DNA from: Aliikangiella sp. G2MR2-5
Lineage (GTDB): Bacteria > Pseudomonadota > Gammaproteobacteria > Enterobacterales > Kangiellaceae
DNA length: 64,000 bases
NCBI RefSeq assembly: GCF_015687155.1
Contig: NZ_JADPQF010000001.1
Coordinates: 434,001 to 498,000, forward strand
Direction: 5' to 3'
The notes under the pieces are model-generated. The model saw nothing but the letters and a program-made list of their open reading frames with translations, was not told the origin of the DNA and made no database searches. The stretch's first letter is position 1. Every line of letters begins with the position of its first letter. The position numbers and the translations under genes were made by a program. Below are positions 4,635 through 22,531 of the stretch, one piece after another.

Positions 4635-5678
4635 ATGCTTCAAATACAATTATTCGGAACTCTTTCCATCCAATATGCTCGCGCAGATGGAAGTCATCAA
4701 GCACTACTGTTAACTAGTAAACTGGCTAATATGTTCGCATTTTTATCTCTTTATCGTGGTCGTTATTTCAGCCGGGACGAACTTGTCGCCGAGTTATGGG
4801 ATGATTTATGTGGTAATACAGTCAGTCAGGGTGCCTTCAATACTATCTTGTGGCGTTTAAGAAAAAATATTGAAAAACAGCATTTTAGAAATGGTGAATT
4901 ATTTGAGCGCGATGGCAGAGGGTTTATCTGTTTCCGAAAAGAAGCGAATGTTTACCTTGATATTGAAGAATTCAAGCAAAAGGCCAAAGCCGCTAGTGGA
5001 CGACCTGTTAATCAATTAACTGAGCAAGATATTGCGAGTCTAAACAGGGCTATTACTTTATATCAAGCCGATATACTCGGTAACTTTACCGCTGAGTGGG
5101 CAATTCGTGAGCGAGAAAAGTTGCGCAGAATATATTTTAGTGTTTTAGCAAGGCTTATTGAATACTCCAGATTATGTGGTGACTTCGATCTAAGCATTAG
5201 TTATGCGCAAATGGTTTTGGACAGCGAGCCTTTAAGAGAAGATGTTCATCGTGAACTTATGGAATTATATGAATTGAGTGGTCAGCGGGCACTTGCTTTA
5301 AAGCAATTTGAAACTTGCCGGAATTTATTGCGCAAGGAACTTGCGATCCCTCCAATGCAGCAAACAATGAAATTATATCAATCAATTACCAACACAGCAT
5401 TGCACCCGGAAGTTAATGCTAACTCGAGTCACACTTCTAAACTGTTAAATAGTTTTAGTACCTGTCTTGAGCGCGAAGATTCTGCGCTAGAAAAATTTGA
5501 TGTGCTCAGCGTAAACACTGCAGAACAAAGCGAAGGTTATTCTCAATTCAACTCTCAGTTTAACTCTCAAACTAAATCACAATCCAGAAAGCTTATGCAG
5601 AGTGCTCGTGAGCACCTGGCTATCGCAGATGAGCAATTGAAATCAGGTCTTGAGCTTTTAGATGTCGATTTCAACTAA
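4635..5678 (+). CDS. SARP-type transcriptional regulator (winged helix plus BTAD)
   Basis: A 347-residue protein. Residues 1-100 form an OmpR-like winged-helix DNA-binding domain (start LQIQLFGTLSI, then SRDELVAELW and a helix containing TILWRLRKNIE). Residues 110-255 match the bacterial transcriptional activator domain, a TPR-like bundle with LREDVHRELMELY and ALKQFETCRNLLRKELA. This is the domain order of SARP regulators, which in actinomycetes switch on secondary-metabolite clusters by binding direct repeats at 11-bp spacing. The last 90 residues are Ser/Gln-rich with a final helix and are not recognised. The gene lies immediately upstream of a twelve-gene operon whose leader carries such repeats (5968-6011), so it is the probable activator. 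The start has only a weak ribosome site. Confidence 0.85.
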   Translation: MLQIQLFGTLSIQYARADGSHQALLLTSKLANMFAFLSLYRGRYFSRDELVAELWDDLCGNTVSQGAFNTILWRLRKNIEKQHFRNGELFERDGRGFICFRKEANVYLDIEEFKQKAKAASGRPVNQLTEQDIASLNRAITLYQADILGNFTAEWAIREREKLRRIYFSVLARLIEYSRLCGDFDLSISYAQMVLDSEPLREDVHRELMELYELSGQRALALKQFETCRNLLRKELAIPPMQQTMKLYQSITNTALHPEVNANSSHTSKLLNSFSTCLEREDSALEKFDVLSVNTAEQSEGYSQFNSQFNSQTKSQSRKLMQSAREHLAIADEQLKSGLELLDVDFN

Positions 5679-5967
5679 CTGAAATTGATCTGTAAGAAAT
5701 TTGAATATTATATTCAACTCCTTGATTTTAAAATTAAAAACCATCTTTCTTCTGGCTTCTAACCAGCAGATAACTAGCCGTTTTCGTCGAACTACTCTCC
5801 GGACATTGCTACGACTTTCATAGTTTTGAATCCTTTTGCTACCAACTTTATTTCAAAAAAGAAGACTTTGAAATAGACCTAGCCCTCAGCTACATGGGGT
5901 GTCTGCTTCGCCATTTTTATCTCTCATCTCAATAGAATCACGCACTAATTTATCACTTAGCTGATTT

Positions 5968-6011
5968 TGTGATGCTCGTGTGATGCCCATGTGACTATCG
6001 TGTGATGTCCA
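5968..6011 (+). promoter_or_regulatory. four 11-bp direct repeats: probable SARP operator
   Basis: Four contiguous 11-base units start at 5968, 5979, 5990 and 6001. Units 1, 2 and 4 begin with the heptamer TGTGATG and unit 3 with TGTGACT; the remaining four bases vary. SARP regulators such as ActII-ORF4 and DnrI are known to bind heptameric direct repeats at 11-bp (one helical turn) spacing ending about 8 bp before the -10 box. Here the last heptamer ends at 6007, and a possible -10 (GATACT, 6017-6022) follows after 9 bp. The first operon gene starts at 6048. The repeats are seen directly; binding is inferred. Confidence 0.75.
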
Positions 6012-6016
6012 GGGAG

Positions 6017-6022: not shown

Positions 6023-6047
6023 AAAGATAACCAAGAGATCCAAAACG

Positions 6048-6371
6048 ATGGCATTAACCGACGAAAAATCAGCCTCTTTTATCATTCGAGTTTGGCGCGA
6101 AGGTGGACAGTCCTCTGGAGAGAAAGCTGAATGGCGAGGCTCCATCGAACAGATAGAAACAGGTGAGAAAAGTTATTTTTGTGAATTAGGAAAAATCCCA
6201 AAGTTTATGAAACCTTTTATTGAAGCGATTGGAATATCCACTCCGGAAAGCTTCTGGGAAGTAATTACTGATTCAGATATGAATATTTTGACTGAAGAAG
6301 AGCTGCAGGCTGATGCCGGTAAATATTCTCAGTTAGATAAACCGAATTTAAATAAAAGTAGCCAAAAGTAA
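6048..6371 (+). CDS. small conserved-type protein, first gene of the operon
   Basis: A 107-residue protein with no signal peptide. Residues 10-60 follow a pattern I have seen in small bacterial proteins of unknown role: FIIRVWRE, then EWRGSIEQIETGE, an aromatic pair and a helix ending in FMKPFIEAIG. This suggests a small beta-sheet domain followed by a helix. The C-terminal 30 residues are polar and probably disordered. Its stop overlaps the ATG of the large peptidase gene by one base (TAATG), so the two are probably translationally coupled. No function can be given. Confidence 0.72.
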   Translation: MALTDEKSASFIIRVWREGGQSSGEKAEWRGSIEQIETGEKSYFCELGKIPKFMKPFIEAIGISTPESFWEVITDSDMNILTEEELQADAGKYSQLDKPNLNKSSQK

Positions 6372-9300
6372 TGGCGGGAGGAATCATGCCACAGATTCGA
6401 CCAAACCGTGAGTCTATCGATGACCGGTTTAGCGTTCTCGGTTTTACCGTAAGAACTGAAAATCCCTTATTCGAAGTTGGAGTAGCCACCGATCCTATTT
6501 TATTCAACCCGGAAAACAGAGCGCTTAGAAATCGTAATAATTTCTATTCGAGTCGTGCCGCCGGGATTTTAAGAGCGAATCGCGGTGAGGCGGTCTACCT
6601 GCTACCTCCCAAGGTTATGTCCAATTTCATTGGAAACCAGCGGCTGTATTTTGGATTGGCTACCTATTCCGAAAACACTCAGGAGCGGCCCTCTCATATA
6701 CAAGTTCCAACTAGCGGAAATATGTATGTGGGAATTGCAGGGCTTACTGGAAAAGGTCTTCAAAGGCTAGTTAACAAATACTCACCACCTGGATATATAC
6801 ATCCTAATGGACAGGGCGGTAATGGGCATACAGGCCTTGAATGGGGGGGGGATAGAGCCCTTTCTGGAGTGCCAACCAATGGCGGACAAGCCTCTGCATC
6901 CAGAGATGATCAGATAAGAGTGCGAGGAAATGTTGAAGCGCCAGTATATGATGATGGTTTTGGACCACTTCCTTCGGTTGAACCTGCTTCACCAGAGGTA
7001 AACAATGCTGCAAATTCAAACGGTGGTAACGGCTCGGCCGTTGTAAACCCTATTGAAGTGAACAACTCAGCTAGTGTGGACGCTTCAAATGTCGATACCA
7101 CTCTTCCGAACTCATCAGTTCAAAATGGAGCCAACTCAGAAGGCATTGCCGGCTCCGCTAATACCAGTCAGCCCTTAGAGTTGATAGAGCCCTTTTATGA
7201 CCCGCAAGATCCAATTTCGGCACTCACCTGTCAGGATAATGCGTTCAGTGCGGAGGCTGAAGAGTGGTTTGCCGGGGTACCTAATACGCAGTTGTTTCCC
7301 CATTCAGCCATTTGTCAGTTAAGAATGACGGCACCGGATGGTAAGCGTTATCGTGGCACTGGCTTTTATATTAGTAACAACAGAATTTTAACTTGTGCGC
7401 ACAATCTTAATGGAATGTCTTCGGTCACCATAATACCTGGCAGAAATGGTGAATCCAGCAAGCCATTCGGGGAAACTACAGTCCAATCATCCTCTTGGAG
7501 AATAGCTCCAAATTACAGTGGTTCTGGGGACTGGGCAAATGATTTGGCAGTTATTGATAATGTTCCACTAACAGCACCAAATGGTCATTATTTTGAGTTC
7601 TTACACCAGACACCCTCCAACAGAATGCGAGTTATTGTCTGTGGCTACTCATCAAGTTCACGTGTGCTTCCCGAAATGAGACGTGCCATTGATGGTCATA
7701 AGCAACATTTACATGGTGGACTGGTTCATGGGCAAAGTGCGCCACAAGTGATTGAATATCCAATCCTGACTTTAAGGGGCGCAAGTGGCTCGCCTGTTTA
7801 CAAAATTGATCATGCAAGCGGTCAACCCAAAGCATTAATTACTGCAGTTCATGTTACTGGTGAGCCGGCGAGTGATGGATTGAATAGAGGCTGTTTTTTA
7901 ACGCCTTCTAAAATTGACTGGATTGAGGGACGAGCTCAGTCATTCTCTCTAGGTGCCGAAGCAAGCAGCAACACGAGCTTTCGTAATGATATGAACCTGC
8001 CTTGTGGACAACGAGTTCCTCAGGGAGCTGGTCATAGTCAGGCCATGGCCATTCCTCTAGATCCCGGGCAGGGCGGGCGCTCAATTGGTCTCGATGCATT
8101 GCAACAAGGCGATATTATTGTTACCACTGCGCGACATCCGGTGTCCTACGCTATCCGAGTAGGTACACTATCAGCTGTTAGCCACGCTATGCTGTATGTC
8201 GGCAATGGAAACATTATAGAAGCGGTCGGAGATGGCGTAAGAGAAATTCCGCTTGCGCAAGCGATTGAAGGCGCACTTATTGCCGTTGCCTATCGTGATC
8301 CCAGAGTTAACCCAGGCATTGCTTCACAGATTGCGAACTATGCGCGGACTCGAGTCGGAAATCCTTATAATTATGCAGGTGTTGCCTATGTTGGCTATAG
8401 CATTCTCAACCCCGGAAAATCAGCATTAATAAATGCTATAGCGGACAGGCTGGGTATTCGAATTGGTCAAGCGGGGGCAACCTATTGTTCTGAGCTGGTT
8501 TTTGATGCATACGAACAGGCGAATGTTTCGCTTGGCGTAAGACCATCAACAAGTACACCCGACGATATTGTCGATTTGTTTCAGGATAAACTGAACTACG
8601 TTGGGCATCTTCTAGCGGCGGATGTACCCTTTGGTATTCCGTTGTCGCTAGGACAAGAGTCGAGCCGCTTTTCTGCGCGCGGACAAAACTATCAAGCTCA
8701 ATCTTTTTCAAATTCCAGCTTTGCCGTTCATTGGGATACGGTTCCATTCCAGGCACAAAGTAGTAATCGCTCCTGTTGGGCTGCCTGTGCTGCAATGATT
8801 GTAGGTTGGCGTGACAGCATATCAATTCCTGACAGTGAAATTGCTGCCAAGGTTCCTGTTATTGATGCTTATAAAAATGGACTTTGGCCGAGAGAGCGGC
8901 AAGTACTTGCGGATAGTTGGAATCTGGTTGCTGAAGCTCCTGCATCGTACACTATTGAGGCGTGGCGCCATATGTTGGAATCATATGGCCCGCTTTATGT
9001 AGATATGAATTTTTCTCCCAATAGTGGTGGACATGCTCGCGTGTTAGTCGGTATGGAGAGTGATGGTGCGGCCGATGGATCGGATACCACCATGTTTATG
9101 TATGATCCCTGGCCGGGCTCTAAAGGTAAACTTAAACTCAGTTTTGCAGATTTCCTAAACCTTTACGAAGGGCGTACTGATAATTCCGGAGGATATCTTG
9201 AGTATCAAATTCTTCACGCTGCAGCAATTCCCGGTGGATTACAGCCGGCTCTAGCTTCAGCATTTAGCGCTCAGTCTGATGGTCAGACAAACGGACAAAA

Positions 9301-10009
9301 CATCCAGTCCAATCAAGAGCTATCACAGAATTACAGTCCAAATCTCGAGCAAGCAGCACATCAAAACCAAAATTCATCGAGCTCTCTCGCGCCAAAAAAT
9401 AATAGTCAACTACAGCAACAAGAGCCTGTGCTCGCTCCATCACCTGAGCCAATTAGCCAGCAGCCAATCCAAGGGCAAATTGTTAAAGCGATGGATGGTG
9501 GTGCGACGGTCGCAATAGCTTCTGTAGTTGCTGGTGCAGCGATGGAAAGGATCGTGAACAACCAGGGAGATATTACCTGGGAATTAGATCAGCTTCGCGG
9601 AATGAAACATCCAAATGATACAGCCCCAACGCCAATGCCTGGAGCACATAATGGAGAAGTTATTCGTCTGACGGATTGGCCGGAAGTTGTAAACCTTGCT
9701 GGAGATCAAATTAGTGCTGGTTTCGAAATTAACTGGCAATACAACGGAAAAAGTGTCGGTAACGTTTTGATTAGCAATGTAGCAACTAATGATGCGATAG
9801 GTTGGGGTTTAACCGTTAAGGCCAAAATTATGGATGACAACATTGTTTATCCACAAAACGCGCCTGAATTTGCAGCATTGCGGATCAGATTCGAGTATCG
9901 GTTTACCCGAGCTATTGGTAGTGACCACATCGCAATTAGAGACGTGCACCTGTTTGGTAACGGACGATATAACATTAGCGGTCGATGGGAACAGGCTGAT
10001 ACGCTTTAA
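6371..10009 (+). CDS. 1212-residue protein with trypsin-like, NlpC/YiiX-like and C70/C39-like peptidase domains
   Basis: An unusual multi-peptidase protein. Residues 1-165 are an unrecognised beta-rich domain, then a low-complexity linker rich in Asn, Ser and Gly (about 170-285). Residues 310-520 form a trypsin-like serine protease: TCAHN gives His344, NDLAVI gives Asp391 and GASGSP gives Ser472. Residues 575-740 resemble the permuted NlpC/P60 (YiiX-type) papain fold, with SHAML (His605) and TYCSELV (Cys706). Residues 785-930 resemble C70/C39-like papain peptidases: SCWAACAAM (Cys802), GGHARVL (His888), YDPWPG (Asp912). After a Gln-rich linker (970-1050), residues 1070-1212 form a beta-rich unrecognised domain. 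No signal peptide or membrane segment is evident. The ATG at 6371 overlaps the upstream stop; an alternative ATG at 6386 follows GGGAGGA. Confidence 0.85.
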   Translation: MAGGIMPQIRPNRESIDDRFSVLGFTVRTENPLFEVGVATDPILFNPENRALRNRNNFYSSRAAGILRANRGEAVYLLPPKVMSNFIGNQRLYFGLATYSENTQERPSHIQVPTSGNMYVGIAGLTGKGLQRLVNKYSPPGYIHPNGQGGNGHTGLEWGGDRALSGVPTNGGQASASRDDQIRVRGNVEAPVYDDGFGPLPSVEPASPEVNNAANSNGGNGSAVVNPIEVNNSASVDASNVDTTLPNSSVQNGANSEGIAGSANTSQPLELIEPFYDPQDPISALTCQDNAFSAEAEEWFAGVPNTQLFPHSAICQLRMTAPDGKRYRGTGFYISNNRILTCAHNLNGMSSVTIIPGRNGESSKPFGETTVQSSSWRIAPNYSGSGDWANDLAVIDNVPLTAPNGHYFEFLHQTPSNRMRVIVCGYSSSSRVLPEMRRAIDGHKQHLHGGLVHGQSAPQVIEYPILTLRGASGSPVYKIDHASGQPKALITAVHVTGEPASDGLNRGCFLTPSKIDWIEGRAQSFSLGAEASSNTSFRNDMNLPCGQRVPQGAGHSQAMAIPLDPGQGGRSIGLDALQQGDIIVTTARHPVSYAIRVGTLSAVSHAMLYVGNGNIIEAVGDGVREIPLAQAIEGALIAVAYRDPRVNPGIASQIANYARTRVGNPYNYAGVAYVGYSILNPGKSALINAIADRLGIRIGQAGATYCSELVFDAYEQANVSLGVRPSTSTPDDIVDLFQDKLNYVGHLLAADVPFGIPLSLGQESSRFSARGQNYQAQSFSNSSFAVHWDTVPFQAQSSNRSCWAACAAMIVGWRDSISIPDSEIAAKVPVIDAYKNGLWPRERQVLADSWNLVAEAPASYTIEAWRHMLESYGPLYVDMNFSPNSGGHARVLVGMESDGAADGSDTTMFMYDPWPGSKGKLKLSFADFLNLYEGRTDNSGGYLEYQILHAAAIPGGLQPALASAFSAQSDGQTNGQNIQSNQELSQNYSPNLEQAAHQNQNSSSSLAPKNNSQLQQQEPVLAPSPEPISQQPIQGQIVKAMDGGATVAIASVVAGAAMERIVNNQGDITWELDQLRGMKHPNDTAPTPMPGAHNGEVIRLTDWPEVVNLAGDQISAGFEINWQYNGKSVGNVLISNVATNDAIGWGLTVKAKIMDDNIVYPQNAPEFAALRIRFEYRFTRAIGSDHIAIRDVHLFGNGRYNISGRWEQADTL

Positions 10010-10022
10010 GTAGGAACCAGAC

Positions 10023-11186
10023 ATGAATGACGTTCGCCTTTCTGCTCCACCTCCGCCCATTGTCGGGTTTGCCAATACGATTTCGGCAGACAACTCTTCA
10101 TTGAGCGAAGGGAGTCACCAGAACCTGGAGAGCCGTTCAAATGGGTTAGGTAATGATGGTATCAATCATAGCGCCAACAATGAGATCGAGTATCGAAATA
10201 CAGGTTCCGCAAATGTTGGCAGTTCTCAAATGAATAACCAAAAGAATGTCAGTCAGCCCGTCAGAGCAAGAGCGCTGGCAGAAGAAGTAGAACAACAGCA
10301 GGTACCCAAAGTTAAGAAGCAGGCGACCGATACAATCGCAGCGAAAGCTGGAGCCATGGTTAATGAATTAGACTTTCCCGGGTTTGTCTCTTCATTAGTC
10401 AATGGAACATTTGATGCTGTAGTGGATGCCTCTATCCGCCAGCTCGAAAGCTACAGTGATTTAGTGGCAGCGATCAGTAAAAGTGTTGACCAGTTTACTG
10501 CTGAAAATGTAACGGACAATCAAGCAAGGGACTGGCTCGCACAAAAATATACAGGTGACGTTTCTTTGGTTTTACCTTCTACACCTGGAAGTGGTCAACC
10601 GCAACTTTTTCCCAAAAGTGACGGCTTAAGTCCTGACTGGCTTGCTGATTTTGATATGCAGGGAGAGGAGCTTACCAGCGAAATTTTGGAAAGAGAACTA
10701 TTGCCTAGAGTTAGAAATAAAGTTGGTGCCGAAAGACAACAGCTGCTAGCCAGTATGGTGATGCTGGGGATAAATCGTATAGCCGTTAAAGATGGCTCGA
10801 TTACCGCCAAAGTAATGTTTAGAGCGAACGCTCAAGATACGGCGAAGGTTGACTACGCTACAGGAAGCGATCCGCAACAAGCACTTACCCAGGACTGGGG
10901 ACAAAGAGGGAGCAGAACCTACAACCAGGCCAGTACGATGGTATCGACGCTGGCGGTAAATGCGCAAAATGAGTCGAGCGTAAGAGCCGACTTATTTGGC
11001 GAAGTTAAGCTCAACTTCGTAAGCGAAGCGTTGCCAATAGATCAATTGACCGGTGCTGAAACTATTGCATTAATACAAGGTTTAACCCCTGCCATAAGTC
11101 GTCAAAATCTGACTCAGCAAAACGCACCGCAAAATTCTCAGTCGATAAATCAACAGCCCTCCATTGTTAATGGAGGACAGAACTAA
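10023..11186 (+). CDS. paralogous family protein 1 (unrecognised family)
   Basis: A 387-residue protein, one of four related proteins in this operon (others at 17016, 18455 and 20789). Shared block A (about residues 115-180) has FPGFVSSLVNGTFDAVV, a helix with SIRQLESY, then VDQF, EN and ARDWL. Block B (about 238-275) has RQQLLASMVMLGINRI followed by DGSITAKVMF. Block C (about 315-350) has GEVKLNF and an LPIDQL segment. This copy lacks the N-terminal helical block present in the other three and instead starts with a Pro/Asn/Ser-rich stretch. No signal peptide. AGGA lies 8 bases before the ATG. Its stop overlaps the next start by one base. Function unknown. Confidence 0.8.
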   Translation: MNDVRLSAPPPPIVGFANTISADNSSLSEGSHQNLESRSNGLGNDGINHSANNEIEYRNTGSANVGSSQMNNQKNVSQPVRARALAEEVEQQQVPKVKKQATDTIAAKAGAMVNELDFPGFVSSLVNGTFDAVVDASIRQLESYSDLVAAISKSVDQFTAENVTDNQARDWLAQKYTGDVSLVLPSTPGSGQPQLFPKSDGLSPDWLADFDMQGEELTSEILERELLPRVRNKVGAERQQLLASMVMLGINRIAVKDGSITAKVMFRANAQDTAKVDYATGSDPQQALTQDWGQRGSRTYNQASTMVSTLAVNAQNESSVRADLFGEVKLNFVSEALPIDQLTGAETIALIQGLTPAISRQNLTQQNAPQNSQSINQQPSIVNGGQN

Positions 11187-11536
11187 TGCTTAGAGATTTT
11201 TCGACAGTTCTGATCGATCTTCAACAGGCTTTGGTTGAAGCTAGTGAAAAATCGAAAGGAATGATTTCCGTACTAGATGCTGAAATGAAAATTCCAATTG
11301 ATATGCGCGTAATTTTCAGAGATGGCGAAGCTGTGTTGTTAGGAGATGTTCCTCGCTCGATTGAAGATGCCAATTGGTTTGACGAGCTTTCTAGTTTGAA
11401 AATCTGTTGGCAGCAAACAGATATGTCGGAGCAAGCTTGTACTAGAAATTCGAAAAATATTAGAGCAGATGACGAACCAGTTCTAACTCGAGAAAATGCT
11501 TCAACAAGTTCTCAGGAGGAAAATAATGGCTTCTGA
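11186..11536 (+). CDS. small hypothetical protein, translationally coupled
   Basis: A 116-residue acidic protein. Residues 1-90 appear globular: a helix (DFSTVLIDLQQALVEA), then strands around MRVIFRDGEAVLLGD and a short helix; the tail is Ser/Glu-rich. Start and stop both overlap neighbouring genes (TAATG at the front, 11 bases shared with the next gene at the back), which supports it being translated. A GGAGGA sits about 10 bases before the ATG. Not recognised. It may partner the Trypco2-like protein encoded immediately after it. Confidence 0.68.
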   Translation: MLRDFSTVLIDLQQALVEASEKSKGMISVLDAEMKIPIDMRVIFRDGEAVLLGDVPRSIEDANWFDELSSLKICWQQTDMSEQACTRNSKNIRADDEPVLTRENASTSSQEENNGF

Positions 11537-14050: not shown

Positions 14051-14177
14051 CTAGTTGTAAATTTTTGGAAAGAAATTGAGAAGTAAGTCGAGAAGCTTTT
14101 ATCAAGTAACTCAAAGCACGGTAGAAACCGTAAACGATAGATACAGTTAAACTAAATGCCTTAGAGGAGGTAACATC

Positions 14178-15911
14178 ATGACCCGCAAAGTGTTAGTGGA
14201 TCTGGGCGAACGGGACTACCGTGTTCGGATTGAACTGGAAGAAAAAGCCCAAAATATTCGGGTGTTAGATAAACCGACAGCTCAGCAACTCAAGGAGTTG
14301 GAAACTATTGAGCGTGCTCTAGACCGAGATGTCGTAATTGATCCTTTTTACAGAGAAGTTCTTTCTACTTATCTGCAAAAAGATGAAGACCAAATCAAAA
14401 AATATTTGCATGAATATGGCTTGATGGGAACGCAAAAAAGTGCTGTAGGTAACGACTTGTCTCCGCGAGAAATAGAGGTGGCATCGATTTGCGGTCTTAT
14501 GCAACTTGATGGGATTACTGATCCTAAAAGAGCCCACTTTCAGAAAAAAGTAAGTGAGGCTCAGGGAGAGTATCGAACTAATCCTGAGGTATTCTTAAAG
14601 GTTTTCAAATGGCTGGCAGAACGTCACAAAGTTACTGTCGAGAGTCAAATTAAGCAGAATCTGATATATGAAGGAATTGTTGGGTGTGTCCGCCCGGGAG
14701 GCGCAATAAGTTCTCGTCGAGATCCCGAAACTGGAGAGATGAGAGAAACTTATGGAGATGATAAAAAAACGAATAAATCTGTTCTGGTAAGAGCCGATGA
14801 AATAAACGTAATTTCAACTAAACTTGCCGCGAGCGTCGTTAGAAAACTGGTGGCAGACAGAGTTTCTGCGAATGACGCTTTTCTTGATACTAAAATCGAA
14901 GCAACCTTTGAAAATACCGCAGGATATCAGGATGGTGGACCGCTTTCTTCAATGGAAATAATGCTGCCAGATTTAGAAGATGCAGTTGATATAGAAATCA
15001 TTAAAGATAATTTGTACGCGGTACAATCGATGTACTTTTTTATGATGCTTGAAGAAGCGCGCTTGCCTCAAGTTGTTGAGTATATTTCTGAGGCATGGCG
15101 ACGTGGCGCTATCACTTTAGGTAAAGGCCCTGCTGGCGATGCTTTATACGAACATCACCGTCAGGCGAATGAAAGGCTAAGTGAAATTGAAAGGCGAAAC
15201 TTCTTTATGGGGACTTTTGGAACTCCTGGAGGTGATCCTGAGTACGGTAAAGAAAACTCTATGTTTCATGAGCTGATGTTAAGAACAACGTCTTCAGTGT
15301 CGCAATACTTTAGAGAGTTTTCTACTCACAATGTTTTTCTATCTCAGGAAGGAATCAGAAAAGCTTGTCGAGAACTTGCTGCCAACTTATCTGTACATGG
15401 CTATGGTATGGCTCACTATACAGCAATTGAATTGCAACAGACGATCCTTGAGTATCGAGACCTTCTTTCTGATCCTGAAATTTTGCGAGCTTTCGGAGCG
15501 AGGGATATGTGGCAAGTTGTTGATCAGGTAAATGCAAATTATCTGAATGGATTGCGTAATACCTATCGATATCGAATCCAGGCGCATTCTGGTGCAATTA
15601 TTATTCGATGGCTAGCCAACAATCATCAAAAACTTGTTGGACGCACAGGACTAGATGTCATTTCAACTGAAATATTGTCGAATCCTAATTTGCGCAGTTT
15701 ACATACTCATCGTCCACTGGTTAATCCAACTGATTGGGATTTTATTAATGCTTGTGAGCAATGGCTTGCTGTTGGTGGAGTGCATGATGATAGAGTTGAT
15801 TTATATTCGCAACCAATTGAATCTCCAGCAATATCTACAAGGCCAACATCTATGCCCAGAGTAGCGAGAGATGTTTTAGATAGTGTCGGTATTGAGCTTC
15901 CCGGAATGTAG
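14178..15911 (+). CDS. 577-residue hypothetical protein sharing a C-terminal domain with the 354-residue operon protein
   Basis: Not recognised. A perfect AGGAGG ribosome site precedes the ATG. Residues 1-60 are charged, with a short strand (KVLVDLGERDYRVRI). The middle is mostly helical. Residues 400-480 align by eye with residues 195-275 of the protein at 19725: a GM-x-x-Y start, a long helix, an L-x-x-P-x-x-L-x-AF segment, then R-x-x-W and an IxWLA-type end. This suggests two diverged copies of one helical domain, with about 325 extra N-terminal residues here. No signal peptide, membrane helix or catalytic motif is visible. A structural or scaffold role is possible but unsupported. Confidence 0.75.
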   Translation: MTRKVLVDLGERDYRVRIELEEKAQNIRVLDKPTAQQLKELETIERALDRDVVIDPFYREVLSTYLQKDEDQIKKYLHEYGLMGTQKSAVGNDLSPREIEVASICGLMQLDGITDPKRAHFQKKVSEAQGEYRTNPEVFLKVFKWLAERHKVTVESQIKQNLIYEGIVGCVRPGGAISSRRDPETGEMRETYGDDKKTNKSVLVRADEINVISTKLAASVVRKLVADRVSANDAFLDTKIEATFENTAGYQDGGPLSSMEIMLPDLEDAVDIEIIKDNLYAVQSMYFFMMLEEARLPQVVEYISEAWRRGAITLGKGPAGDALYEHHRQANERLSEIERRNFFMGTFGTPGGDPEYGKENSMFHELMLRTTSSVSQYFREFSTHNVFLSQEGIRKACRELAANLSVHGYGMAHYTAIELQQTILEYRDLLSDPEILRAFGARDMWQVVDQVNANYLNGLRNTYRYRIQAHSGAIIIRWLANNHQKLVGRTGLDVISTEILSNPNLRSLHTHRPLVNPTDWDFINACEQWLAVGGVHDDRVDLYSQPIESPAISTRPTSMPRVARDVLDSVGIELPGM

Positions 15912-15945
15912 AACTGGTACAACTTTTTAGAGGACGGAGTTTGTT

Positions 15946-17001
15946 ATGCAACACCATCATAAAAGAACAACTCGACCTATGTCTGATTATGTGAAGCACT
16001 CACTGAATTCTGCTTCGCGAGTACTAGGAATCAAGTCGCCAACCGATTATATGGATGACTTTATTAATAGGTCTTTCAGTTTGCCCGAAAATGACATTGC
16101 CTATGCAAACAATGAACTAGCACCTGGCGCGGTTCCTTACGAACCGTCATTTTCGGAAACCGAGCCCAACAAATTAAGGTTCACTATTCAGCCATTAGGG
16201 CCAGGGGCGCCACCTATCGCAAGGCGTGATGATGCCACCCGTGAAATGCGAAGGATGATTCTACCGACTTTTGGTCGAGATACCTTGCATTGGTTTGACG
16301 CGCTAAGTGAAGAATGGCGAGGCTTTAATGGCTTGGGCTGGATGTCTTACGGTGCATGGTTTGGTAGCGCGTTTGACGAAGACGGGTTATATGCCACCAA
16401 AATCTATTATGAATTATTGCCTTCACAGATTGATGCTTTGTCACCACAACTGGCTCAAACCAGCAAACTGGTAATGGCTGAAATGCCAACTTTGTATCCC
16501 ATTTTTACTTCGATAGGTTGTAAGCGTGACTTGGCAAGTCAACGACTTACATTTATGCACAGGGGTCCACTCAATGTGAGTAATTTAGGACCTTTGATGA
16601 ACCGGTTGGGAATCGGCCATCGGTTGCCGAGCTTAATGCGAGTCGTTGGTTTGGCTTTGGGGGGGCGGTTTGAGTTACCGCAAGGTGGTGCATTGATCGG
16701 TTTACGTCATACGCCTGAGGGAGTCGAGTTAAAGCTTGAAATCTTATTGGCATCTTTACCCGATTTGCCTGGTCGATTTATTGAATTGTTACGACTTGGT
16801 TTAGCCGAACGACCACGGCAACTCAGCGCAATGGATAGATGGCTTGCAGCTTTTGGTGTCGATAATGCTTCTGAACAAGGACATTTCTCAGTGTTAAGTG
16901 TGAGAGTTAGTCCAAAGAGGGAAGCGAGCATAAGTCTTTACGTTCGTCCGATAGAGTTCGAACTTAAAGATACAATTGAAGAAGCCAGGGCGCTAGCCTG
17001 A
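15946..17001 (+). CDS. 351-residue hypothetical protein with repeated strand-helix units
   Basis: Not recognised with confidence. The first 90 residues are polar; from residue 100 onward, beta-strand pairs alternate with helices, with strands at LYATKIYYEL, QRLTFMH, ALIGLRHTPEGVELKLEIL and FSVLSVRVS plus ASISLYVRP. Repeated alpha-beta-beta-alpha units with a final LYVRP-like strand loosely recall ABBA-type aromatic prenyltransferases. This is a pattern impression only, and no diphosphate-binding residues can be assigned. Cotranscribed with neighbours: 34 bases after the previous stop, GAGGA-type ribosome site, 14 bases before the next gene. Confidence 0.72.
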   Translation: MQHHHKRTTRPMSDYVKHSLNSASRVLGIKSPTDYMDDFINRSFSLPENDIAYANNELAPGAVPYEPSFSETEPNKLRFTIQPLGPGAPPIARRDDATREMRRMILPTFGRDTLHWFDALSEEWRGFNGLGWMSYGAWFGSAFDEDGLYATKIYYELLPSQIDALSPQLAQTSKLVMAEMPTLYPIFTSIGCKRDLASQRLTFMHRGPLNVSNLGPLMNRLGIGHRLPSLMRVVGLALGGRFELPQGGALIGLRHTPEGVELKLEILLASLPDLPGRFIELLRLGLAERPRQLSAMDRWLAAFGVDNASEQGHFSVLSVRVSPKREASISLYVRPIEFELKDTIEEARALA

Positions 17002-17015
17002 TAGAGGAGAAGCCA

Positions 17016-18380
17016 ATGTCTGCTAATGTGTCAAATTTGCCAGGTGGTCATTCTGCGCTTAATGGTAACAACATACAAAGCGGTAGCCACAACCAGGGAG
17101 GTTCCAATCAGGGAAATTTGCGACCTGTAGCGAGCCAGGAGAATATTGATTCAACTCGGCATGCTGTTCATAAACTGCTGAATAAAAGCGAAGCATTTAA
17201 TGCGCTAGACGAAAATAAACGTCGAGCACTAGCGAATGACTTGGTTCATATTGGCACTTATCTGGCAGAGCCGGATGGAATGCGGATTAATCCGAATAAA
17301 CAGAGTGAACCAGTAAGAGCAATGGCAGAGGATGGCGTAAGAAGGAATAGCCAACAGTCGGGTGACGGTACATTCAATGCGCAAGCTGCGCGAGAAGGTG
17401 CCGCTGTAGCGGGTGCTCTATTAGAAGCTGTAAATTTTCCTGAGTTTGTTTCCGGATTAATTGACGGAGTTTTTCATTCGATCGTTTCCAGTTCAATCGA
17501 ACAGATGGAAGCTTACGCAAAACTGGTCGCCGATGTTTCCAAAAGTATCAACCAGTTTAGAGATGAAAACACTACTCAGAATCAAGGGAGAGATCATCTG
17601 GTAGACAGCTTTCCAGATATATTTGAACTCAGCGTTGATACCGGAGAGTTTGGTTCAGATTTTGGAAATTTTGACGGTGAGGGTGAAAGTCAAAGACCGG
17701 GGCCTCGCGTAGTTTTACGGGATGGAGTTAATCAAAGAGATGCAGTTGAAAGAATTAATAACGAACTGCCGTTGGAAGAGCCGTTAACAAGAATTGATGA
17801 TAATTTAGTGGAGGCTTTACTTGTTCCTGCGGCCAGAACCCAGCTGGCAACCAGCAGACAACAGCTATTGGCTACAACGATAATGATGGGAATTAATCGG
17901 GTGGTCGTAACTGATGGTAGAATTGCTGCCAAGGTTATGTATGACTTCCGAGCAAGAGATAACATGAAATATCGTAATAGCGCTCAACAGTTTGATTACG
18001 GTGATCAGCGAATCACAACAAGTGAAGGAGCTTACGAATCGGATAGTGCCTACAATAGTCAAGGGGCAAGTATGAGTTCCGATGGTGACTACAATGGCGG
18101 CAGGCGAAGTGGTAGCTATTACTCGAAAGGGCAGTATAAAAATACGTCTCAGCCGGTACTTAAGCTTGCATCAGCTTCACAAACCGATATTGACGCGGAC
18201 TTGTCTACCAAAGCTTCATTATCCGGGACAGTGGAAGTTAATTTCAAAAGTGACTACCTGCCACTCGAAAAGTTAGCCAACCCTGAGTCTATTGCGGCGA
18301 TCCAAATGAATGCTCAACCAGGAATGGTAAAAAATCTGGCAAATCGGCCACAAAATTCAAGCGGGAGTTCCGGTTCTTAA
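17016..18380 (+). CDS. paralogous family protein 2 (unrecognised family)
   Basis: A 454-residue member of the four-copy family. An N-terminal Gly/Asn/Ser-rich stretch leads into a helical block (about residues 45-90) with VHKLL, SEAFNAL, NKRRALA and LVHIGTYLA, shared with copies 3 and 4 but not copy 1. Block A (about 142-205) has FPEFVSGLIDGVFHSIV and SIEQMEAYAKL. Block B (about 280-320) has RQQLLATTIMMGINRV and DGRIAAKVMY. Block C (about 400-430) has GTVEVNFKSDYLPLEKLA. A Tyr/Ser/Gly-rich insert separates B and C. AGAGGAG lies 6 bases before the ATG. No signal peptide. Function unknown. Confidence 0.8.
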   Translation: MSANVSNLPGGHSALNGNNIQSGSHNQGGSNQGNLRPVASQENIDSTRHAVHKLLNKSEAFNALDENKRRALANDLVHIGTYLAEPDGMRINPNKQSEPVRAMAEDGVRRNSQQSGDGTFNAQAAREGAAVAGALLEAVNFPEFVSGLIDGVFHSIVSSSIEQMEAYAKLVADVSKSINQFRDENTTQNQGRDHLVDSFPDIFELSVDTGEFGSDFGNFDGEGESQRPGPRVVLRDGVNQRDAVERINNELPLEEPLTRIDDNLVEALLVPAARTQLATSRQQLLATTIMMGINRVVVTDGRIAAKVMYDFRARDNMKYRNSAQQFDYGDQRITTSEGAYESDSAYNSQGASMSSDGDYNGGRRSGSYYSKGQYKNTSQPVLKLASASQTDIDADLSTKASLSGTVEVNFKSDYLPLEKLANPESIAAIQMNAQPGMVKNLANRPQNSSGSSGS

Positions 18381-18454
18381 GGCTTTAATCAGACTAGATT
18401 AAGTCGATTTACAAAACCTTAGGTTAGAGAAATTTTTTCGATAGGACTTTGCAG

Positions 18455-19690
18455 ATGTCACAGAATAACCTGGCGCTAGCCGCTCAAAAAAATGATGAGA
18501 ATGAACCTGCTTGGTTAGCTGATTCAACTTTGTCTGCCGTACGTCCACATGTTAAACGGTTGCTTCAACAATCTCCTGGATTTAGAGAGCTGGCTCCGGA
18601 TAAACAACGTGAGATTGCAAAAAATATGGTTCATGTTGCTGCATATATGAGTAATCCTCAGGGATTAGCGGAACAGGAACTGACGCCGGGGCAAAGTATA
18701 CTATCTCACGCGCAAGCGGACGGTGTTAAACAAGCCAAAAATAAGGCTTCCGATAAAATTGGAACTTTTGCTGGGTCAGACTTTGAAGCGGGGGCGTTAA
18801 AGCAAGGAGTTGAACAATACAAAGAACTGATAGGTGCTGTTGACTTTCCAATGTTCGTTGGAGGCTTAATAGAGAATGTCTTTCAGGCGATAGTTAATGC
18901 ATCGATTCAGCAAATGGAAGCTTATGCTGAAATGCTAAAAGCTGTCGCGCAAACTGTTGATCAATTTGCACAGGAAAATATTAGCCTGAATAATGCGCGA
19001 GATTGGTTAACGGATAAATTTCCGGGACAGCTCACATTAAGCGAAGAAAATATCGAAGATACAGGCAGTCCACAACTTGCTGTTGCAACAGAAGATGAAG
19101 ATGCCTTTTATTCGCAAATTAATCAGGAAATGGAGCTGGCTCGTCCGGTGAGTGATTTGTCAGATCCTGAAGAAGAATCTCGCCTGGTTCAGGCTGCTCG
19201 TCTTCAAATGGCCAAGTCGAGACAACAAATGCTCGCTTCTATGGTTGTTCTAGGCATAAACAGGATTGTCGTTACTGACGGTGCAATAAAAGCAAAGGTG
19301 GTTTTTCAGCTAAAAGCAAAAGACAGCGCGAAACGCGAAGCCAAAGCGTCACTCTATGACAGAGATTCAAGCTACAACAGAAATACTTCTTACGCTGGCG
19401 CGCATTTTGGCTGGGGAGGCGCAGCTTCAAAAAATACTAATGTTCAAAGTCATATGACTGCAGTTTCTTCGGCAGTAGATGAAGACTCAGAATCAAAAGC
19501 AGAATTAAAAAGTAAGCTTACCGGCGAAGTGAACGTTAATTTTAAATCGGATTATTTCCCGATGGAAAAACTTGCGTCCCCGGGTATGATTTCTGCAATT
19601 CAAGGCAATGCTACTCCTTATGATCCTAATTATTTGCCGGGTAAAAGAGAGGCTCAAACTTCCAATAGTGGCGATACCAGTTCGTCTTAA
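18455..19690 (+). CDS. paralogous family protein 3 (unrecognised family)
   Basis: A 411-residue member of the four-copy family and the cleanest example of its layout. The N-terminal helical block (about 20-70) has VKRLLQQ, FREL, KQREIA and MVHVAAYM. Block A (about 128-195) has FPMFVGGLIENVFQAIV, SIQQMEAYAEM, VDQF and ARDWL. Block B (about 255-295) has RQQMLASMVVLGINRI and DGAIKAKVVF. Block C (about 350-385) has GEVNVNFKSDYFPMEKLA. The ATG at 18455 is preferred over a TTG at 18449 because AGGA sits 8 bases before it. Closest by eye to copy 2, which lies directly upstream, consistent with local duplication. Confidence 0.8.
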   Translation: MSQNNLALAAQKNDENEPAWLADSTLSAVRPHVKRLLQQSPGFRELAPDKQREIAKNMVHVAAYMSNPQGLAEQELTPGQSILSHAQADGVKQAKNKASDKIGTFAGSDFEAGALKQGVEQYKELIGAVDFPMFVGGLIENVFQAIVNASIQQMEAYAEMLKAVAQTVDQFAQENISLNNARDWLTDKFPGQLTLSEENIEDTGSPQLAVATEDEDAFYSQINQEMELARPVSDLSDPEEESRLVQAARLQMAKSRQQMLASMVVLGINRIVVTDGAIKAKVVFQLKAKDSAKREAKASLYDRDSSYNRNTSYAGAHFGWGGAASKNTNVQSHMTAVSSAVDEDSESKAELKSKLTGEVNVNFKSDYFPMEKLASPGMISAIQGNATPYDPNYLPGKREAQTSNSGDTSSS

Positions 19691-19724
19691 AGTTTAGGGG
19701 TTGTTAGATAAGGAGTTGATGACT

Positions 19725-20789
19725 ATGGATAATAAATTAGCATTCAAAGAATTTTCAGCAATTGAAGCTGCTGATTCTGGTTTCAGTGATTCTACTATCC
19801 GTAGTACTCCCCCAATTAATGTTGAGCAGCTACAACTGGCGGTGAGCTTTGCTCATGGCCTGGTGATTGACAACGCATCGAGTCTTGCAATGAGCATGCA
19901 AGAAGTCGGTGACGTAGCATTGCCAGACCTTAATATTGATGGCAACTCTGCCGCGCGTGACTATTCCGCACTCAAAACATTGTCACCACTATATCTGGCC
20001 TTCGAGTTAGAGCAGGCTGGGGTACTCAAGACTGCAGAGAGAATTTCTGGTTTGTTTTTTAGCGGTGCGATAACCCAGCCTCTTGGGGAAGCTGAATCAT
20101 TGATTAGAGAGTTCTGGCAAAACAGGCGTCAACGTTTGAACAGGCAAGAGAGAGAATCCCTATTTCAACAGACTTTTGAATATCGATATTTTTACCCTCA
20201 ATTTAGTCGACTGTGTCAGGCTATCGTCGCATTAGCGGATAATACTCACAGGGATATTCAAGAGGAGGTACAGCTGGATTTCGCATTGCAAAATTTACGA
20301 GAATACTTGTTTTCTCGTTCGTTTGGTATGGTCACTTATGTTGCGGAAGATATTCTCTCTGCCATTACATCCGCACTGACTTTTCTCAAACAACCTCATG
20401 TTCTAGGAGCATTTCATGTAAGAAGTCTATGGGAATTACTTTCGGTCAGTACAAGTGAAAACCAGTATAAGATACGACAATACGCAGAAATGGCGAGTGC
20501 AGGAATGTATTTAATAAACTGGGTTTCATCTCCGCAGGCTGGTCAGCTACAACTTCAGAATAAGGATATTTCGCAGCGAATTTTTTCAGCAGCCCATCGC
20601 TGGCTTTTGGCATTCTCAGCTCTGGAGTCTATTCAGCACAAAAGTCTTGGTCAAAATTCTCGAAATCAATTAGGGGCGACTCCTTTTAGCACTTCAACAT
20701 TTGAGTCGACTGAATATGAATCTGTGACCTATAGCCGTGCAGCTCGAGATCAGGCAAACAGTCAAATGTTGTCAAGCTGGATAAGTTAA
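19725..20789 (+). CDS. 354-residue hypothetical protein sharing a domain with the 577-residue operon protein
   Basis: Not recognised. Predominantly helical. Residues 195-275 align by eye with residues 400-480 of the protein at 14178 (GM-x-x-Y, L-x-x-P-x-x-L-x-AF, R-x-x-W, then an INW/IRW segment), so the two appear to be distant paralogs. The start at 19725 is chosen because AGGAG at 19711-19715 is 9 bases upstream; ATG 19719 is too close and a TTG at 19701 is poorer. The stop codon overlaps the next ATG by one base (TAATG). No signal peptide or membrane helix. Confidence 0.72.
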   Translation: MDNKLAFKEFSAIEAADSGFSDSTIRSTPPINVEQLQLAVSFAHGLVIDNASSLAMSMQEVGDVALPDLNIDGNSAARDYSALKTLSPLYLAFELEQAGVLKTAERISGLFFSGAITQPLGEAESLIREFWQNRRQRLNRQERESLFQQTFEYRYFYPQFSRLCQAIVALADNTHRDIQEEVQLDFALQNLREYLFSRSFGMVTYVAEDILSAITSALTFLKQPHVLGAFHVRSLWELLSVSTSENQYKIRQYAEMASAGMYLINWVSSPQAGQLQLQNKDISQRIFSAAHRWLLAFSALESIQHKSLGQNSRNQLGATPFSTSTFESTEYESVTYSRAARDQANSQMLSSWIS

Positions 20790-22531
20790 TGGGTCAACTA
20801 GCCAGAGCGCAGAAGCTTTATAGTGAAGAGCAGGGGGCTCCTCCAATATGGTTGCGTTCAGCTGTTCGCGAAGTGCTTGACAAGTCAGATGGTTTTCATC
20901 AGTTAGAACCTGAGAAGAAGAGAAGCCTGGCGCAAGCCATGGTCAAGGTTTCTTCAATGGCAGCAAAGTTAATCGCAGAGGAAAGCCTGGCTGAACAAAA
21001 AGTCAATCAATCGGAAATTTCGCGCGATGGAACTTTTGAGTCAGGGCTGTCAGAGCTAAAAGATGCACCGGTATTGGCTTACGCTCAAAGTCAACCTGAG
21101 TTTGGTGAATCCGCTAATCGAATTGCCGGCGTAACGAGAAACGTGCTAAATGCTGTGTCCTTTCCAAGGTTTGTAACCGACCTGGTAAACGGGGTATTCG
21201 AAGCAATGTTAAATTCGACATCACAACAAATGCAAATGTATGTTGAGCTGCTTAACAATGTTTCTGCATCAGTAGAAGGGTTTGAGCAGACCCAATTTTC
21301 GGCACATGGTATTCGAGTGTGGCTTACTGAACAGTTTCCTGATGCCTTTGTATTGCAAGGGGGGGATGACGATTTCGGTTTTGACGATGAGGATGATGAG
21401 CCTGACGAGGATGCCGAACCACCAAGGCTTGCTCTGCGCAATGGTGGTAGTATGCCGAGTCAGGATGCTATGAGGGCTGTCTTTGGCTTGACTCCGGGAG
21501 AAAATATTTCAGCTAGCAATCCTGAGCAGCTGGTTCCCTATGCTAGAAGACAGGTTGCTCGACAGCGCCAGCAGATGCTCGCCACAATGGTGCAAATGGG
21601 AATGCAGCGCATTGTTATTGATAGCGGTAAAATTAATGCCTCGATGCGTTTTCACATTGATACGCGTAGCGCTGCAAATCAGGATCGCGGCAGAGAGTTT
21701 GGCATGCAGAACAGAGTTAAGGCTGCCGGAAGATTTGGCATGGGACCCTGGGGAGCATCGGCCGAAGTTGAAAATAATATCAGTTATGTTTCAACTCAGA
21801 GGAGCCAACGTACCGAAGAAATTAATACTGATCTGGAGTTAAATTCGTCAGTTGAATTGAATTTTAGAACTGATTATTTGCCGCTAAATGAGATGGCGGC
21901 TGAAGCGCAAGCGGACAGAATACGTCGGGCATCTCTAAATCCTTCAGCCGCCAATGATACGAGTGCTGGAGACAGAGCAACGAGGCAAAGAGAACAGAGA
22001 GCTGCTGAGAGAGAAAGGGCGAATCGAATGCAACTTAATCAGCCTAATACTGCCTCCACTCCACTCACCCCTCCTGCCTCAGGTTCTGTTAGCTCTAATA
22101 ACCAAAGCCAAAACAGGCAGTCCGCCAGCAGTGGTACTTCTAGCAGTAGCCGTTCTTCACCCAGAAATGCGTCTGGCGGCAGTACATCCAGCGGCAGTAC
22201 ATCCAGCGGCAGTACATCCAGCGGCAGTACATCCAGCGGCAGTACATCCAGCGGCAGTACATCCAGCGGCAGTACATCCAGCGGCAGTACATCCAGCGGC
22301 AGTACATCAAGTGGCAGTACATCCAGCGGCAGTACATCCAGCGGCAGTACATCCAGCGGCAGTACATCAAGTGGCAGTACATCAAGTGGCAGTACATCCA
22401 GCGGCAGTACATCCAGCGGCAGTACATCAAGTGGCAGTACATCAAGTGGCAGTACATCAAGTGGCAGTACATCCAGTGGCAGTACATCCAGTGGCAGTAC
22501 ATCAAGTGGCAGAACATCCAGTCGACGTTGA
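20789..22531 (+). CDS. paralogous family protein 4 with C-terminal GSTSS repeat tail
   Basis: A 580-residue member of the four-copy family. The N-terminal helical block (about 15-60) has VREVLDKSDGF, LEPEKKRSLA and MVKVSSMAA. Block A (about 124-190) has FPRFVTDLVNGVFEAML and QQMQMYVEL. An acidic stretch (about 195-215) is followed by block B (about 255-295, RQQMLATMVQMGMQRI) and block C (about 350-375, SSVELNFRTDYLPLNEMA). It diverges more than copies 2 and 3, for example GM-QR for GINR. After block C comes an Arg/Glu-rich helix, a Ser/Asn-rich linker, and residues 464-578 consisting of GSTSS pentapeptides. It is coupled to the previous gene (TAATG) and ends the operon. Confidence 0.8.
   Translation: MGQLARAQKLYSEEQGAPPIWLRSAVREVLDKSDGFHQLEPEKKRSLAQAMVKVSSMAAKLIAEESLAEQKVNQSEISRDGTFESGLSELKDAPVLAYAQSQPEFGESANRIAGVTRNVLNAVSFPRFVTDLVNGVFEAMLNSTSQQMQMYVELLNNVSASVEGFEQTQFSAHGIRVWLTEQFPDAFVLQGGDDDFGFDDEDDEPDEDAEPPRLALRNGGSMPSQDAMRAVFGLTPGENISASNPEQLVPYARRQVARQRQQMLATMVQMGMQRIVIDSGKINASMRFHIDTRSAANQDRGREFGMQNRVKAAGRFGMGPWGASAEVENNISYVSTQRSQRTEEINTDLELNSSVELNFRTDYLPLNEMAAEAQADRIRRASLNPSAANDTSAGDRATRQREQRAAERERANRMQLNQPNTASTPLTPPASGSVSSNNQSQNRQSASSGTSSSSRSSPRNASGGSTSSGSTSSGSTSSGSTSSGSTSSGSTSSGSTSSGSTSSGSTSSGSTSSGSTSSGSTSSGSTSSGSTSSGSTSSGSTSSGSTSSGSTSSGSTSSGSTSSGSTSSGSTSSGRTSSRR
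22178..22522 (+). repeat. 15-bp in-frame minisatellite encoding (GSTSS)22 plus one variant unit
   Basis: Twenty-two uninterrupted 15-base units encode Gly-Ser-Thr-Ser-Ser, followed by one altered unit (GRTSS) and two arginines before the stop. The last two codons of each unit vary between TCCAGC, TCAAGT and TCCAGT, while the GGCAGTACA part is constant. Variants fall in blocks, as expected from slippage or unequal exchange. Because the unit is a multiple of three with no stops in other frames, long spurious reading frames open here on both strands. Confidence 0.97.

Follow-up and report, generated by a model that had tools for sequence, protein, structure and literature searches.

The element described here lies near the start of a 64,000-nucleotide stretch of DNA from Aliikangiella sp. 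G2MR2-5, referred to throughout as the window, which comprises bases 434001-498000 of contig 1 of a 5.0-Mb genome. It consists of a gene for a SARP-type regulator (4635-5678) followed by twelve co-directional genes (6048-22531), all read as open frames on the + strand, and it looks like an undescribed molecular machine. The original prediction, made from the sequence of the window, was of twelve closely spaced same-strand genes behind such a regulator, and with this the open reading frames, the gaps and the match to the BTAD domain all agree: spacing among the twelve genes ranges from -41 to +127 base pairs (bp), the regulator being separated from gene 1 by 369 bp, and stop-to-stop frames of at least 300 amino acids (aa) within 6048-22531 number ten on the + strand, while neither the - strand nor any of 50 shuffles has one. 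The features are as follows (E denotes expectation value).

4635..5678, + strand: SARP-type regulator, 347 aa, winged helix and BTAD domain (BTAD E 7.8e-24)
5969..6006, + strand: putative SARP operator, four GTGAY repeats at an exact 11-bp period, 41 bp upstream of gene 1 (from the sequence)
6048..6371, + strand: gene 1, 107 aa, no recognised family
6371..10009, + strand: gene 2, modular hydrolase of 1212 aa, with an N-terminal region of ~200 aa, trypsin, C92 and C70 domains and a C-terminal region of ~150 aa (Pfam)
10023..11186, + strand: gene 3, paralog A, 387 aa, invariant hairpin Trp W292
11186..11536, + strand: gene 4, 116 aa, small and fast-changing, no recognised family
11496..12617, + strand: gene 5, 373 aa, perhaps remotely Trypco2-like (sub-cut-off match in one ortholog)
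12614..14050, + strand: gene 6, subtilase (S8), 478 aa, no signal peptide seen (S8 E 2.2e-34)
14178..15911, + strand: gene 7, 577 aa, sharing a domain with gene 11
15946..17001, + strand: gene 8, 351 aa, predicted PT-barrel (ABBA prenyltransferase fold; AlphaFold2, Foldseek)
17016..18380, + strand: gene 9, paralog B, 454 aa, Tyr-rich hairpin, no conserved Trp
18449..19690, + strand: gene 10, paralog C, 413 aa, hairpin Trp W322
19701..20789, + strand: gene 11, 362 aa, containing the gene 7 domain
20789..22531, + strand: gene 12, paralog D, 580 aa, hairpin Trp W321, SGSTS repeat tail

Among the twelve proteins only those of genes 2 and 6 match a Pfam family above its cut-off, the other ten having none. 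The trypsin-like, NlpC/YiiX-like and C70-type domains that had been expected within one protein are indeed found together in gene 2 (as Trypsin_2, Peptidase_C92 and Peptidase_C70), while the expected subtilase is the 478-aa product of gene 6 (Peptidase_S8); the four paralogs are equally real, A, B and D being 25-36% identical to C, as is the second shared domain, which is common to the 577-aa and 362-aa proteins of genes 7 and 11 (E 4.6e-8). When the regulator and the twelve proteins were put through a simple scan of hydropathy, no signal peptide was seen, again as predicted, the sole 19-residue stretch to exceed 1.6 being the one that surrounds the active-site serine of the subtilase. Searches aimed at known systems likewise bore out the view that this set corresponds to none of them: PADLOC, given ten block proteins, returned peptidase-domain matches to genes 2 and 6 and nothing else, PHROGs gave no match under E 0.001 for the ten submitted to it, and NCBIfam gave no convincing family for nine. 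Sheath, tube and baseplate components, such as would indicate a contractile injection system or tailocin, were matched neither by Pfam in the twelve proteins nor by PHROGs in ten, and no convincing relatives of solved structure were found by sequence for genes 7, 8 and 10. Scans for RNA families in window positions 1-30000 and for terminators at the operon ends found none, and a scan for sigma-70 promoters at those ends gave counts near the shuffle means.

The strongest evidence that the block is a real unit comes from its relatives. A scan of genome contigs with the 577-aa gene 7 protein found 16 loci in 15 genomes belonging to three phyla, the closest to the window among these matches being in a Kangiellaceae metagenome-assembled genome (MAG) and in Aliikangiella coralliicola. 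At all 16 the adjoining block genes are present in identical order as far as the contigs reach (those of L005, L008, L009, L019 and L020 end within the locus), and genes 2, 3 and 5-12 occur in every locus whose contig extends to them. The hosts are A. coralliicola and the related MAG, Chitiniphilus (two), Burkholderia, Massilia, Sphingomonas (four), Ruegeria, Cellulomonas (two), an actinomycete MAG (on two contigs) and a Gemmatimonadetes MAG; one copy of the block is on a plasmid of Burkholderia pyrrocinia. An independent search with gene 8 among 250 genomes of the genus Sphingomonas gave nine matches, six of them strongly divergent, and in all six of these genes 2-12 again lie in order (gene 4 being detected by profile), gene 1 not being found. 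The neighbourhood check that had been proposed thus shows one conserved block, in 16/16 and 6/6 loci, and the term “orphan”, originally applied to three of the proteins, needs amending, in that, genes 1 and 4 apart, each gene is present wherever the contig extends to it, and the 351-aa protein has a predicted PT-barrel fold. The encoded core accordingly comprises four diverged paralogs, a subtilase, two domain-sharing proteins and a predicted PT-barrel protein. Among the genomes sampled the block is rare: gene 8 was found in 1 of 398 genomes of the host phylum (the window's own) and gene 7 in 2 of 295 of the host order (the window's own included), while gene 8 occurs in three of the seven genomes of the host genus, in 9/250 of the genus Sphingomonas and in 2/221 of the Cellulomonas family, centre genomes being included in each case.

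Homologs standing apart from the peptidases in most genomes had been named in advance as the observation that would count against a single system. A partial check of this did not go against the single system: it found the paralogs only at the block in six of seven genomes (a family profile gave four matches in each, all on the block contig), whereas in the seventh, the fragmented Gemmatimonadetes MAG, the five matches were spread over two contigs, two of them overlapping in a way that suggests a split gene. Relatives of the 577-aa and 351-aa proteins accompany the subtilase and the rest of the block, the distant gene 7 relative of Paraburkholderia (see below) being one that lacks them.

Trees of nine genes were built from the window and the sixteen gene 7 loci, leaving aside the plasmid copy and the six divergent ones. 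In all nine, Cellulomonas and the actinomycete MAG group with the four Sphingomonas and apart from the alphaproteobacterium Ruegeria (support, where given, 0.37-0.91), and Aliikangiella groups with Chitiniphilus (support 0.975-1.0); pairwise identities also correlate between the nine genes (r 0.87-0.98). Given this agreement, and the placement of Cellulomonas with Sphingomonas, the block is, to judge from its sequences, a cassette that moves between phyla as a unit, and its genes therefore travel, and presumably work, together. The scanned neighbours of the window's copy are of an ordinary chromosomal kind, among them genes for a PfkB kinase, an acyltransferase, a desaturase, a UvrD-type helicase and cysteinyl-tRNA synthetase, and in A. 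coralliicola the genes to the left of the window's block sit on another contig. Flanking genes differ between lineages, the only common ones being regulators and one pair of short opposite-strand frames (adjoining the place of gene 1 in L013 and L017), although some flanks are common to the two Chitiniphilus and likewise to the two Cellulomonas; no mobility genes are common to the lineages, the search for these having covered only flanking genes that loci have in common.

What appears to be a reduced or divergent variant is carried by a Tolypothrix/Microchaete plasmid (L023, 11554-21725). It resembles the block in having, within one operon, the subtilase, gene 7, one paralog (the single match there to the family profile), a relative of gene 5 (E 2.8e-27) and a protein weakly like gene 4, and differs in having one paralog rather than four, no gene 8, no convincing match to gene 2 in the stretch read, and extra proteins, namely a peptidoglycan-binding coiled-coil protein and others of 721 and 436 aa.

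The regulator matches BTAD at 85.1 bits, above the cut-off, and Trans_reg_C at 26.1 bits against a cut-off of 26.2. In A. coralliicola a 60% identical ortholog stands beside the block; each Chitiniphilus genome has one SARP, 51-52% identical to that of the window, which does not adjoin the block but lies ~80 kilobases away on the same contig in C. eburneus and outside the stretch examined beside the block in C. shinanonensis. Cellulomonas has a BTAD gene upstream of the block. In B. pyrrocinia, by contrast, the gene that precedes the block carries the annotation of a sigma-54-dependent regulator, and relatives of this gene have the same position in Burkholderia sp., Ruegeria, Massilia and one Sphingomonas, so that the same operon has been placed beside two kinds of activator. 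In several lineages, then, this is a horizontally moving operon with its own activator gene or operator, of SARP or sigma-54 type.

As to the operator, a four-fold array of GTGAY at 11-bp period is found once per genome in each of the three block-bearing genomes of the genus and in none of the four that lack the block (one of which is only 82% complete), while the reversed pattern is found in none of the seven. It lies at the same place in A. coralliicola and in both Chitiniphilus, and nowhere else in the 627,133 bases compared; it is retained before the Chitiniphilus operons (L007 and L012) even though the regulator is elsewhere (L072 and L071 respectively). A simpler pattern, a pair of repeats with two mismatches allowed, is not above chance when taken alone (three occurrences in the window against a mean of 1.1, 15 shuffles reaching three), and the case consequently rests on the four-fold array and its distribution, which point to a putative SARP-type operator matching the regulator. 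In the available part of PMC5930380 the operator of the SARP PimR is given as 7-bp repeats with 4-bp spacers, 11 bp being the classical SARP repeat unit. The window thus resembles Streptomyces systems of the PimR and AfsR type in its BTAD domain (the AfsR model matches at E 6.6e-10, though far below its own cut-off) and in having direct repeats of 11-bp period before the target operon, as that part of the paper describes, but it differs from them in that its SARP is gammaproteobacterial, the core is GTGAY rather than the CGGCAAG of PimR, and no antibiotic genes are recognised. The further claim that this is not a standard SARP-controlled metabolite cluster is borne out, and so is the SARP, for which there is a matching operator.

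Turning to the proteins themselves, the best match of each of the four paralogs A, B, C and D in another genome is always the same paralog. In the predicted model of paralog C helices precede two long strands, which are separated by a stretch of low confidence, and in this hairpin region a Trp is invariant in A, C and D (15/15 in each); B has no conserved Trp, and most copies of it that were read (gene 17016-18380 in the window) have there a Tyr-rich motif, Y-Y/F-x-KG-x-Y. In the six divergent sphingomonads the hairpin Trp is kept in A (6/6) and D (6/6) and lost from C (0/6). Paralog D ends in a long SGSTS tail encoded by 23 copies of a 15-bp repeat (window 22176-22521); the contig of the related MAG (L005) ends inside this gene. 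A fold assignment for the family was attempted and dropped, the model being too poor and no match reaching E 0.001.

For gene 2, Pfam was run on 18 of 21 complete or near-complete copies (L092, L094 and L095 being excluded, and L008 and L009 being cut at a contig end), and C70 was found in 17 (up to three per protein), Amidase_2 in 8, C92 in 6, DUF3238 in 6 (below the cut-off in three) and Trypsin_2 in 5, while some 200 residues at the N-terminus and 150 at the C-terminus are conserved in most copies. One such modular protein, of changing hydrolase content and with ends that are similar in most copies, is encoded wherever the contig extends far enough; on this domain evidence gene 2 is a protein whose hydrolase modules are exchangeable between genomes. 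Four peptidase domains, which had been put forward as the hallmark of the system, are accordingly not supported in that role: the constant part is the S8 subtilase, the four paralogs and genes 5, 7, 8 and 11, C70 coming close at 17/18 and trypsin (5/18) and C92 (6/18) falling well short. In the window copy the C70 Cys-Trp and His-Ala, the trypsin His, Asp and GxSGSP, and the C92 Cys-Ser-Glu, which we take to be the catalytic motifs, suggest that the enzymes are active. The available part of PMC3482391 describes polymorphic toxin systems, with which gene 2 has in common a conserved part combined with exchangeable modules; it differs in varying mid-protein, between two ends that are both conserved in most copies, and in that no immunity gene or secretion signal was recognised in the block.

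An AlphaFold2 model of gene 8 built from 14 sequences (predicted local distance difference test, pLDDT, 83; predicted template modelling score, pTM, 0.84) shows strands and helices in five alpha-beta-beta-alpha repeats forming a ten-stranded barrel, and the top Foldseek matches in the PDB, namely CymD (E 2.5e-13, template modelling (TM) score 0.67-0.71), DMATS1 (2.8e-12), IptA and PriB (2.3e-10), are all PT-barrel prenyltransferases, at sequence identities of 12-17%. At the level of sequence Trp_DMAT reaches 19.5 bits (E 1e-3) on the Cellulomonas protein, under its cut-off of 25, and is not listed by Pfam for the window protein at E 1; three attempts with hhalign against DMATS proteins were not significant, so that the relationship rests on predicted structure, according to which gene 8 is predicted to be a PT-barrel (alpha-beta-beta-alpha, or ABBA) protein resembling CymD and DMATS. 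When gene 8 is aligned jointly with real DMATS proteins, the two have matching positions (by eye) for one Arg, for a Lys-x-Tyr and for a late Tyr, and almost matching ones for another Arg. The Arg, Lys-x-Tyr and Arg, which we take to be diphosphate-binding positions, correspond to R78, K152, Y154 and R200; among 22 copies (the fragment from L016 being set aside) they are kept in 16, the window's included, apart from one change each of Lys to Arg, Tyr to Phe and Arg to Lys, whereas all six divergent sphingomonads (L090-L095) have Ala, Thr, Thr, and Met or Trp in their place. In most lineages gene 8 may for this reason be an active enzyme, and in one a pseudoenzyme, where the PT-barrel could possibly have been kept for structure. 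Compared with the ABBA indole prenyltransferases (CymD, DMATS1, PriB), then, gene 8 has the predicted five-fold alpha-beta-beta-alpha pattern and, in 16/22 copies, the aligned Arg, Lys-x-Tyr and Arg, but it is not in a recognisable metabolite cluster and 6/22 copies lack the aligned positions. Because the predicted fold is that of indole prenyltransferases, the original statement that the operon encodes no biosynthetic enzymes becomes doubtful.

The sphingomonads that have lost the paralog C Trp are the same six that have lost the active-site pattern of gene 8, and the Tolypothrix variant has neither a match to gene 8 nor a Trp anywhere in its paralog. This parallel loss suggests that the hairpin Trp of paralog C may be a substrate of gene 8.

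Relatives of gene 1 were found only in Aliikangiella and Chitiniphilus loci (3/16, those of A. coralliicola and the two Chitiniphilus), with another on a separate contig of the MAG genome G912; in B. pyrrocinia the gene occupying its position matches DUF3467. Gene 4 was detected by blastp in 7/16 loci and by profile in all six of the further sphingomonad loci. Either small protein could be an immunity gene. One protein had been described as Trypco2-like, and this has held up poorly: a match was found only in B. pyrrocinia, in its ortholog of gene 5 (373 aa in the window), at an E of 0.0098 that does not pass the cut-off, and Pfam gave none in the 116-aa or 373-aa proteins of the window, the remaining orthologs not having been scanned. 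In Cellulomonas humilata (L016, 9314-12289) genes 7 and 8 form a single open frame of 991 codons, and the end of gene 7 looks frame-shifted relative to the sister strain, so that this is either a fusion or a sequencing error. The gene 7-like protein of Paraburkholderia lies on the PGU19 plasmid (L022, 7733-14918) amid Glu-rich proteins and a protein with an HEVSH (metalloprotease-like) motif, near a DUF4062-NB-ARC-WD40 protein; this operon may be a second system that uses the gene 7 domain.

The reading that we prefer, while holding it only tentatively, is that of a regulated, horizontally moving operon which builds a protease-matured assembly carrying a modular hydrolase, probably for use against other cells. 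One assembly with exchangeable cargo would fit the fixed order, the shared inheritance, the common switch, the four co-inherited paralogs, the subtilase with no visible signal peptide and the modular hydrolase. On such a scheme paralogs A-D, each with a helical region and a predicted beta hairpin, would co-assemble with the proteins of genes 7 and 11 as a cytoplasmic hetero-oligomer to be matured by the subtilase, and gene 2 would be the cargo, docked by way of its conserved ends. The PT-barrel protein would modify an aromatic residue of the assembly, the best candidate being the hairpin Trp of paralog C, or else might be a scaffold derived from an enzyme of prenyltransferase type. Release is proposed to be by cell lysis because no signal peptides were seen, and the peptidase and peptidoglycan-amidase modules of gene 2 would act thereafter; as peptidoglycan amidases are common among these modules, release and action on other cells are favoured, the likely use being antagonism or predation.

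A number of findings weigh against this proposal and must be set beside it. Nothing in the block was recognised as an immunity gene, a pore, a lysis gene or a component for secretion. Full coupling of the genes is opposed by the distant relative of gene 7 on the Paraburkholderia plasmid (27% identity), which sits in a different operon without the rest of the block. The paralog C model is poor (pLDDT 61, pTM 0.40), and no match to it, viral folds included, reached E 0.001. Amphipathicity of the hairpin strands, in hand-chosen stretches compared with shuffles, gave values of 0.05 or less in only four of eight cases, the other four lying at 0.053-0.19. For gene 2, the Gemmatimonadetes frame has no match to the C-terminal end, and the Massilia protein (L018, 2266-5835) has no recognised peptidase module and repeats the conserved C-terminal domain several times over. 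Regarding the proposed modification, an invariant Trp is not special by itself, because A and D each have one additional invariant Trp elsewhere; prenylation of the A and D hairpin Trp was rejected, since these are kept where gene 8 looks dead; and the joint loss of gene 8 pattern and paralog C Trp amounts to one lineage-level event and one distant variant.

It may be that the operon acts not on other cells but on its own, and this alternative, which we think unlikely, is the best placed of the rivals. In an intracellular conflict or suicide device an internal alarm would lead the regulator to switch the operon on, and the subtilase and the gene 2 peptidases would cut the cell's own proteins and wall, halting infection within the population; the lack of visible signal peptides, the patchy distribution with horizontal transfer, and the proximity of the distant gene 7 relative to a DUF4062-NB-ARC-WD40 protein would all suit this. 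Trypsin and Trypco2 proteins are known from predicted conflict systems, as the available part of PMC7159879 reports, and the weak Trypco2 match in one gene 5 ortholog is of interest in that light: the ternary VMAP/Trypco systems described there also combine in one operon a trypsin-type peptidase with what is here a perhaps remotely Trypco2-like protein, but no MoxR, vWA or VMAP match was found in the twelve proteins, and trypsin is present in only 5/18 gene 2 copies. More generally, Pfam gave no NTPase (nucleoside triphosphatase), MoxR, vWA, STAND, TIR or nuclease match in the twelve proteins. Since PADLOC matched protease domains only among the ten proteins given to it, a known defence system was rejected. 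The peptidoglycan amidase modules of gene 2, moreover, fit a target outside the cytoplasm better, and four fixed paralogs would, to our knowledge, be unusual in a conflict system.

A second rival takes the SARP regulator and its operator at face value, as normal SARP control of a small-molecule or peptide pathway in which the PT-barrel enzyme would prenylate a metabolite or a short peptide that the proteases excise. The available parts of two sources lend this some plausibility, PT-barrel enzymes having been known in 2011 only from secondary metabolism (PMC3227686) and cyanobactin prenyltransferases, which have the same fold, acting on peptides (PMC13290415), yet we judge it improbable: no core biosynthetic enzyme or transporter was matched in the twelve proteins (very short open reading frames were not searched for a precursor), the constant part of the block consists of large proteins, and the block is kept in the 6/22 copies whose gene 8 has lost its active-site pattern. 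The least probable, a domesticated virus-like or a storage or developmental particle whose subtilase would resemble a capsid-maturation protease, is suggested by anatomy alone (fixed order, structural-looking paralogs, a maturation-type protease, a single upstream operator) and is opposed by the failure of PHROGs to match any of ten proteins under E 0.001, by the lack of a significant viral fold match for the low-confidence paralog C model, and by the absence of gene 7 relatives from 50,697 phage records and of the paralog family from viral contigs, on which grounds a phage or virus origin was rejected.

If the preferred reading, of a protease-matured assembly bearing a modular hydrolase, is carried further, one arrives at a more specific picture that we offer as speculative and, in its entirety, improbable: a new class of machine in which the four paralogs would form a complex resembling a tube or pore, with a hairpin tip that the PT-barrel enzyme would prenylate at W322 of paralog C, and which, lipid-tipped and protease-matured, would dock on or enter a membrane to deliver the modular hydrolase, the whole being encoded by a phylum-crossing cassette under SARP or sigma-54 control.

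We found no known system that matches the block, and in the literature covered (preprints and most subscription journals being outside this coverage) no title or opening of an abstract describes it. A cassette of about twelve genes that keeps its order across three phyla and moves as a unit must do something worth keeping, and despite its conservation ten of its twelve proteins have no Pfam family above cut-off. It brings with it a putative SARP operator in proteobacteria that co-occurs with the block within one genus, and, as cultured hosts and a candidate activator gene exist, the block is directly testable. It would also put the PT-barrel fold, described in 2011 (in the available part of PMC3227686) as confined to enzymes of secondary metabolism, into what is apparently a setting of protein assembly.

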